Part shown: positions 34,659-36,709 of the stretch, in pieces
How positions within the stretch are numbered: the stretch's first letter is position 1
Layout: every line of letters begins with the position of its first letter
From: Natronospira bacteriovora
GTDB lineage: Bacteria > Pseudomonadota > Gammaproteobacteria > Natronospirales > Natronospiraceae
Direction of reading: 5' to 3'
Length of the DNA stretch: 64,000 nucleotides
Assembly: GCF_030848495.1 (NCBI RefSeq)
Contig: NZ_JAVDDT010000001.1
Span: 496,001-560,000, forward strand
Position numbers and translations under genes: made by a program
The notes under the pieces: model-generated
What the model was told of the DNA's origin: nothing
The model's input: the letters and a program-made list of their open reading frames with translations, nothing else
Database searches by the model: none

Positions 34659-35510
34659 ATGAAGGAAGCGGAATCGCAGAATCCCTCGGCCGGCGCATTG
34701 CTGGCATTGGCCGAAAACGCCCTGGAGGGCATCGTGGACGATGCCCGACGGGAGGCCCGATTGTTGCTGCGCCTGGCCAGCGGGGTGGCGGACACGGTTT
34801 TGCTGGCCTTTCCCGAAAGAACCTTTCCCCTTGAGACCGTTTCGCATTTTCAGGCCATGCTGCTCAGGCGTCAGGCGGGCGAACCACTGGCCCATATCAC
34901 CGGTGAGCGTGAGTTCTGGAGCCTGCCCCTGAGCGTCACCGCCGATACCCTGATTCCACGCCCCGACACCGAACTGCTGGTTTCAAGCGTTCTGGAGTGC
35001 CTGCCCGGCCACGAACAGCGGCTTGTCGATCTGGGCACGGGCAGCGGTGCCATTGCCCTCGCCTTGGCCAGTGAACGGCCGCAGTGGCAGGTCAGCGCCA
35101 TCGACCGCAGCGAGGCCGCCCTGGCCGTGGCGCGGCGCAACGGCCATCGTCTCGGGCTGAACGTGGAGTGGCTGCAAGGCGACTGGCTTGCGCCGGTGGC
35201 CGGGCGCCGTTTTCACCTGATCGTGTCCAACCCGCCCTACATCCCGGATCAGGATCCCCACCTGGGCCGCGGGGATGTCCGTTTTGAACCCCGGGAGGCG
35301 CTGGCGGCCGGGCACGATGGACTGGATGCTATCCGTCGCATCGCCCAGGACAGTCCCGCCTGTCTCGAGCCCGGGGGCTTTCTGCTGTTTGAACATGGTC
35401 ACGACCAGGGTGCAGCCGTTCGCCGGCTCCTGCACGCTGCCGGCTTCCAGGGGGTGCGGACACGCCGCGACCTGGCGGGCCACGAGCGGGTCACTCTTGG
35501 CCAACGCTGA
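34659..35510 (+). CDS. prmC: Release factor glutamine N5-methyltransferase PrmC
   Basis: 283 residues. It methylates the glutamine of the GGQ motif in RF1 and RF2 using SAM. A helical N-terminal domain (about 1-80) carries the RRQAGEPLAHITGEREFW segment; the SAM-binding LVDLGTGSGAIALAL and the glutamine-binding NPPY (in VSNPPYIPD) are intact. The in-frame ATG at 34659 is the natural start; a longer frame reaching 34512 overlaps the divergent CBS gene and is not needed. A TACAAT lies just upstream as a possible -10 box. In many relatives prmC follows prfA directly. Confidence 0.95.
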   Translation: MKEAESQNPSAGALLALAENALEGIVDDARREARLLLRLASGVADTVLLAFPERTFPLETVSHFQAMLLRRQAGEPLAHITGEREFWSLPLSVTADTLIPRPDTELLVSSVLECLPGHEQRLVDLGTGSGAIALALASERPQWQVSAIDRSEAALAVARRNGHRLGLNVEWLQGDWLAPVAGRRFHLIVSNPPYIPDQDPHLGRGDVRFEPREALAAGHDGLDAIRRIAQDSPACLEPGGFLLFEHGHDQGAAVRRLLHAAGFQGVRTRRDLAGHERVTLGQR

Positions 35511-35672
35511 TCCTCTCCCTGAAGAACGCCCCCTCGATAGGCTCAAAGCCCTGTATTCGTTTCAGAACCCGCGTCAGGCAGGCTGCTTCGCACCTGCCCG
35601 GACGCGGATAGGCACGGACATTTCACAATTTCACTTGCATTTGTCTCATTTTAGTATAGTCTTTTGTATAAG
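35511..35672. promoter_or_regulatory. AT-rich, promoter-like gap after prmC
   Basis: No gene is visible here. The last 50 bases turn sharply AT-rich compared with the rest of the window and contain TATAGT (35655-35660) and TATAAG (35667-35672), each a fair -10 box. TTGCAT (35635-35640) and TTGTCT (35641-35646) are possible -35 boxes, but neither pair has ideal spacing. It would drive the structured region that follows. Confidence 0.45.
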
Positions 35673-35674
35673 TC

Positions 35675-35883
35675 TTGAACAAAGGCGCCCGGTCGTGCCG
35701 CGATGGTCTTCCCCACCCCCCCATCCGGCCCGATAGCCGCCAGGCCCACCCTCTGCCTGGCGGCGCCATAACAAGAAGCCGGAGCATCCGGTCACCCTTC
35801 CGACAGGCGAGCGACGCAGGGATGCGAGAGAAAGCAAGTGAGTAACTCCCCACAGGGCTTCGGATTTCGAAGCCCTTTTTTTT
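35675..35883 (+). ncRNA. Candidate small RNA ending in a strong terminator
   Basis: About 200 bases with no convincing frame. Stems that can be read directly: CCGCCAGG/CCTGGCGG (35737-35763), CCGG-AGCAT-CCGG, and CGCA-GGGA-TGCG, which shows GGA in a loop; then the terminator hairpin. The terminator is over 300 bases after prmC and a promoter-like AT-rich block precedes the region, so an independent transcript is the simplest reading. The loop GGA motifs hint at CsrA/RsmA binding but are too few to claim it. A leader of moeB is excluded only if the terminator is efficient; a regulated leader (attenuator) is an alternative. Confidence 0.45.
35854..35883 (+). terminator. Rho-independent terminator
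   Basis: AGGGCTTCG and CGAAGCCCT form a perfect nine-base-pair stem with a five-base loop, followed directly by eight T on the plus strand. It stands about 80 bases before moeB. Confidence 0.92.
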
Positions 35884-35962
35884 GGTTCATCGCGGAAATG
35901 GGGAGTGGATATGGATTGGATTCGGAATGGGGCGAGATGGGTGGGATTGGTAGAATGGGGGA

Positions 35963-36709
35963 ATGAACGACACACGATATGCCCGACATCACGCCCTCCC
36001 CGGCTTCGGACCGGATGCGCAGGCCTTGCTGGCACGTAGCCGGGTCCTCGTCATTGGTGTCGGCGGCCTCGGCTGTGCCAGCGCCGCCTACCTGACGGCG
36101 GCCGGTGTGGGTGAACTGATGCTGGCCGATTTCGATACCGTGGACGAGGCCAATCTGCAGCGCCAGATCCTGTTCGGTGATGCCGAGCTGGGGCGGCGCA
36201 AGGTGGAGGCTGCCGCCGAGCGTCTGCATGCCCTCAATGGGCAGGCCCGCATTCGCTGCCTGGATCGGCGCCTGGACGAGCCAGCACTGCGGGCGGCGGC
36301 CGAAGAGGCTGATGTGATCGTCGACGGCAGCGACAACTTCCCCACCCGCTTCAATAGCAATCGCGCCTCCCTGGCCACGCGGACTCCGCTGGTATCAGGC
36401 TCTGCCATACGCTGGCAGGGCCAGCTGGCCGTATTCGACCCCGTACGACCGGCTTCCGGCTGCTACGCCTGCCTGTTCGACGAATTGGCACCGGATGAGG
36501 ACATGGGGGATTGCGCCCGCAATGGTGTATTGTCGCCGCTGGTGGGTGTCATCGGCAGCATGCAGGCCGTGGAAACCATTAAATTGCTTACCCATTGCGG
36601 CGATTCTGTTGGCGGGCGACTGTTACGCTATGATGCCCTGAGCGGGCGCTGGCAGGAGAGCCGATTCGCCCGAGACCCGGAATGCACGGCCTGTGGAGAT
36701 TGTTCATGA
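35963..36709 (+). CDS. moeB: MoeB/ThiF-type adenylyltransferase
   Basis: 248 residues, E1-like superfamily. It adenylates the C-terminal glycine of a sulfur-carrier protein such as MoaD (molybdopterin) or ThiS. ATP-binding VIGVGGLGCASAAYL, the Arg/Asn pair in NLQRQILF, DGSDNFPTRF, and two zinc pairs (CYAC near 171 and CTAC near 241) are present. The catalytic cysteine is in GDCARNGVL. It lies downstream of prmC, a common prfA-prmC-moeB order, but is separated by the putative small RNA. Its stop overlaps the next start (ATGA). Confidence 0.92.
   Translation: MNDTRYARHHALPGFGPDAQALLARSRVLVIGVGGLGCASAAYLTAAGVGELMLADFDTVDEANLQRQILFGDAELGRRKVEAAAERLHALNGQARIRCLDRRLDEPALRAAAEEADVIVDGSDNFPTRFNSNRASLATRTPLVSGSAIRWQGQLAVFDPVRPASGCYACLFDELAPDEDMGDCARNGVLSPLVGVIGSMQAVETIKLLTHCGDSVGGRLLRYDALSGRWQESRFARDPECTACGDCS

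Follow-up and report, generated by a model that had tools for sequence, protein, structure and literature searches.

Certain bacterial small RNAs (sRNAs) bind through cytosine-rich regions. PmaR of Agrobacterium tumefaciens is one (PMC6234868), RoxS and FsrA of Bacillus subtilis are others (PMC8216469), and AbcR1 is stated to use an anti-Shine-Dalgarno region (PMC6234868). Among the sRNAs that act as CsrA sponges, RsmZ has eight GGA motifs and RsmX six (PMC4005645).

The element described here lies between prmC and moeB within a 64,000-nt stretch of DNA (the window), whose overall G+C content is 62%. One counterpart by layout is the AbcR/mmgR type of the alphaproteobacteria (suhB, RF00519), which likewise has a C-rich motif before a G+C-rich terminator; AbcR is presumably of the same kind as mmgR, a grouping that we make by likeness only. 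The suhB model matches the element at chance level over 35833-35891 (12.7 bits against a gathering threshold of 41, E 6.5), far under the family threshold, and the terminator part alone matches. With PmaR, RoxS and FsrA the element shares C-rich unpaired segments as the proposed pairing part (PMC6234868, PMC8216469); however, there is no Rfam sequence match, the element has multiple stems, and these RNAs belong to a different class or phylum. PmaR also differs from the proposed element in being mainly an activator, with the majority of its predicted sites lying off ribosome-binding sites (PMC6234868). RsmZ and RsmX resemble the element in having several stems and an intrinsic terminator, but where they have six to eight GGA motifs (PMC4005645) the element has a single conserved GGA loop, of the AGGA type.

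The element and its setting

The prmC–moeB intergenic region spans 35511-35962, the prmC stop codon ending at 35510. prmC (NCBIfam TIGR03534, score above cut-off), moeB (a MoeB/ThiF-family gene, PF00899) and the YiiD-type thioesterase gene that comes next are all on the plus strand. There is a second MoeB/ThiF-family gene (G000:C1:443331-444062, L034), 43% identical to the moeB of the window; the two other genomes of the genus each carry a second copy too, as does the sister genus. Past the prmC stop codon lies a strong hairpin (35570-35606) that has no U-run; unrelated hairpins occupy the same place after prmC in the relatives L002 and L003. The features of the element, all on the plus strand, are as follows.

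35630-35660, plus strand: putative promoter, with TTCACT (35630-35635), a 19-base spacer and TATAGT (35655-35660); conserved core at 35633-35659
35666-35883, plus strand: predicted sRNA transcript of about 215 nt, its 5' end placed from the -10 hexamer; kept between prmC and moeB in 3/3 genus genomes
35697-35729, plus strand: SL2, a predicted stem with a C-rich apical loop (35707-35720)
35736-35764, plus strand: SL3, a predicted 10-bp stem present in all three species, its fifth pair changing from C-G to A-U
35778-35792, plus strand: SL4, a predicted GCCGG(A)/(U)CCGGY stem, 5/5 pairs standard in 3/3 sequences
35793-35810, plus strand: CACCCUUCCGACAGGCGA, a nearly invariant linear stretch and proposed pairing segment, 17/18 bases identical in all three species
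35815-35826, plus strand: SL5, a predicted hairpin with an AGGA-type loop ((A)GGGA/(A)GGA), its stem changing among the three species
35844-35853, plus strand: AACUCCCCAC, a second C-rich single-stranded stretch, kept in all three species (in L003 with one A inserted and one change)
35854-35883, plus strand: intrinsic terminator, 10 pairs at 35854-35876 followed by a T-run of 8 T (35876-35883), giving 8 U

An earlier, sequence-only reading had pointed to an AT-rich, promoter-like block at this locus. The AT-richness is borne out: the most AT-rich 46-base stretch of the window starts at 35620 and is 74% A+T, a value reached by just 7 of the 63,955 stretches of that length in the window, all in one cluster at 35620-35684. 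A promoter scan of the region returned no consensus sigma-70 site, and we infer that TTCACT and TATAGT would act as the -35 and -10 hexamers. The block is nonetheless conserved, with zero indels in the alignment of the three genus species and 23/34 columns identical in every species pair. The core pattern, allowing up to 2 mismatches, occurs once per genome in each of the three genus genomes, at this locus, while a reversed control has 0 occurrences in these genomes. The promoter spacer contains part of a dyad, perfect in L002 only, which we did not count as a binding site.

The same reading had described a strong terminator more than 300 bases past the upstream gene. Measured from the end of the prmC stop codon at 35510 to the terminator start at 35854, the gap is 344 bases. 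Between 34500 and 37500 there are 8 terminator-like sites (shuffle mean 2.0), and none is stronger than this one. In the window's species the terminator loop contains part of another GGA.

Several stems had been proposed ahead of the terminator, and the folds agree. The single-sequence fold of 35675-35883 has an energy of -78.4 kcal/mol (z -2.2, with 5 of 200 shuffles equally good), which taken alone is a modest edge over chance; for the relatives the corresponding z values are -4.3 and -4.6. For the three transcripts together RNAalifold yields a consensus of -44.3 or -42.1 kcal/mol depending on the alignment method (z -4.8 and -4.9), and none of 300 column shuffles is as good with either method. 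SL1 is distinct in the two relatives only. The remaining stems were defined by us and then checked for pairing in the three sequences, and compensatory changes are seen in the SL2 inner stem, SL3, SL5 and the terminator. In particular, the SL2 inner stem is GGGUAG/CUGCCC in one relative versus GUGA/UCAC in the other while the apical loop is CUCCCCC in both; in the window's SL2 the stem is bulged and the C-rich loop is longer than in the relatives. The SL5 stems are CGCA/UGCG, CUGCA/UGCAG and GGCA/UGCC, and the loop that they carry presents (A)GGGA in the window, as the sequence-only reading had noticed of a GGA in one loop. SL4 hardly varies and so offers little covariation. Across the 3'-half alignment 95.7% of 47 cells pair, some pairs being lost because MAFFT placed the window's terminator one base out of register, and 3/16 pairs are changed on both sides; with only three sequences this covariation count is weak, being matched by 27 of 500 letter shuffles. 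The pairing and the two-sided changes lend support to the stems, short of proof from three sequences.

In the predicted folds the SL2 loop (P(unpaired) 0.87-1.0) and the ACUCCCCAC stretch before the terminator (0.60-0.93) form conserved, unpaired C-rich segments. The AAGGA loop of SL5 has values of 0.43-0.69, and CACCCUUCCGACAGGCGA a mean of only 0.52-0.60. That this 18-mer is nearly unchanged amid changing stems suggests a segment for pairing or for protein binding. We infer that CACCCUUCC within it, like both C-rich motifs, would be complementary to G-rich, Shine-Dalgarno-like sequence.

Conservation, coding potential and family membership

When the window's genome and its surroundings, 56 genomes in all, were searched at the DNA level, 3 had the element, the window's own among them. 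All 3 are of one genus, and in both other genus genomes it likewise lies between prmC and moeB. In the 5' half the sequence drifts (39-45 of 96-103 columns identical) while the stems persist; in the 3' half 61-63 of 85-90 columns are identical per pair. The flanks are less alike, with 11-18 of 39-40 columns identical before the promoter and 22-28 of 64-91 past the terminator.

A covariance model from relatives had been suggested as a check. One made from the 3' domain does recover the genus, although nothing convincing beyond it: within the order 3/19 genomes match, all of the genus; within the class 6/369, two of them the genus; and within the phylum 4/398, one of which is the window's own genome. 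Six of the seven extra-genus matches (4 + 3) were rejected as chance, resting mainly on the terminator or on scattered bases. The seventh, L007 1501-1581 (the same sequence as L037), comes from an uncultured Chromatiaceae metagenome-assembled genome and reads GUUGG GACAU CCAAC CACCCUUCUGA. This hairpin, whose stem has changed in a compensatory way, and the segment after it resemble SL4 and part of the linear stretch that follows, but the rest of the element is absent; a contig pattern scan gave just L007 and one Mesorhizobium match, and the resemblance is therefore probably chance. Among the sampled genomes the element is restricted to one genus, although diverged relatives may be missed by the class and phylum searches, which used stricter filters. 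In the sister genus genome moeB is at a contig end, and the search for prmC there gave just one partial match (39%).

The element matches no Rfam family. At the gathering threshold Rfam 15 has no match to the region, and at a permissive threshold the region and its two relatives gave only chance-level matches, all below gathering threshold; riboswitch families in Rfam match neither the region nor the relatives. 6S RNA was considered and rejected, as RF00013 does not match here and the 6S gene is located elsewhere in 4/4 genomes. A small protein, antisense or sense, fares no better. Antisense frames belong to no Pfam or NCBIfam family, and what they match in the relatives is short and limited to the conserved bases. 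On the plus strand, one frame across the 3' domain resembles a protein in two species, but in the third a one-base indel interrupts it (by eye). Substitutions in the 3' domain have no consistent third-position excess, and each pair of species differs by 5-13 indel columns. Judged from these patterns, the element is non-coding.

Proposed mode of action and rival explanations

At the sequence level the element has what is expected of an intergenic sRNA gene: its own promoter and terminator, a position between genes, and a non-coding sequence. Promoter, stems and terminator are conserved in 3/3 genus genomes, so that the small-RNA candidate of the earlier reading has gained ground, and the element is very probably a real sRNA gene. 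As to how it works, we give a probability of about 0.6 to a stand-alone, Hfq-assisted, trans-acting sRNA that would pair through its C-rich segments with G-rich ribosome-binding sites. This is the most economical reading because hfq is present in the 4/4 genomes searched and the RNA would end in U8. An RNA of about 215 nt would start from an AT-rich promoter of its own and stop at its own intrinsic terminator; Hfq would bind the U-tail; and the SL2 loop, CACCCUUCCGACAGGCGA and ACUCCCCAC would pair with mRNAs at their G-rich ribosome-binding sites, so blocking translation. A target search used one segment, the 15-base complement of CACCCUUCCGACAGGCGA with up to 2 mismatches, and gave 10, 5 and 4 matches in the three genomes (each including the locus itself) versus 11, 11 and 10 for the control; no orthologous target across the three species was noticed among these matches. 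As the matches did not outnumber those of the control and pointed to no target common to the species, the mechanism stays conditional.

One alternative, though an unlikely one, is the attenuating moeB leader that the sequence-only reading had offered, a cis-acting RNA in which transcripts from the AT-rich promoter end at the terminator unless a signal gives read-through into moeB. The terminator does lie directly upstream of moeB in all three species, and in one relative the moeB start is about two dozen bases past the U-run. However, a single-structure test of the three sequences, cut before the terminator 3' arm, found no conserved antiterminator, since the 5' arm finds a different partner in each species; no riboswitch family matches; and the order's other moeB homologues (gene identities by eye) are without the element; their neighbours are unrelated genes, a peptidyl-prolyl isomerase-like gene that follows prmC, or prmC itself, immediately adjacent. 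Moreover, each of the three species has a -10-like hexamer (TAGAAT, TACAAT or TAAAAT, by eye) after the terminator and ahead of moeB. The TAGAAT of the window (35951-35963) ends 6 bases before the moeB ATG, and TACAAT is at the same place in one relative; because the hexamer is so near the ATG in these two species, moeB may have a promoter of its own that yields a leaderless mRNA.

It is improbable that the element sequesters CsrA/RsmA in the manner of RsmY/RsmZ. All three genus members (3/3) have csrA, whereas none was detected in the genome of the sister genus (G003), where 83% completeness leaves its loss short of proven, and the AGGA-type loop of SL5 is carried on a stem with compensating sequence change. 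On the other hand, each RNA has 3-4 GGA motifs, mostly buried in stems, and conservation is highest in C-rich rather than GGA-rich sequence; with SL5 the only GGA loop that is conserved, there is no support for an RsmZ-type sponge.

Equally doubtful is an origin by processing of the prmC mRNA, as its 3' UTR, in place of an independent gene: the strand is the same, and prmC transcription may enter the region because the hairpin at 35570-35606 has no U-run, but the promoter block has been kept and occurs at this locus alone, whereas the sequence between that block and prmC is poorly conserved. Nor do we find it likely that the RNA is a genus-specific dual regulator, with C-rich arms on the ribosome-binding sites of numerous mRNAs and the single CsrA hairpin SL5, on which CsrA and Hfq would compete or hand over.

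A limited look at the literature on this lineage found no sRNA study of the locus, which may yet have been described elsewhere. If the stand-alone sRNA gene is real, it would represent an RNA family absent from Rfam, apparently a lineage-specific addition to a well-known and otherwise ordinary kind of gene, and its near-invariant 18-base stretch amid drifted flanks would provide a handle for target finding.
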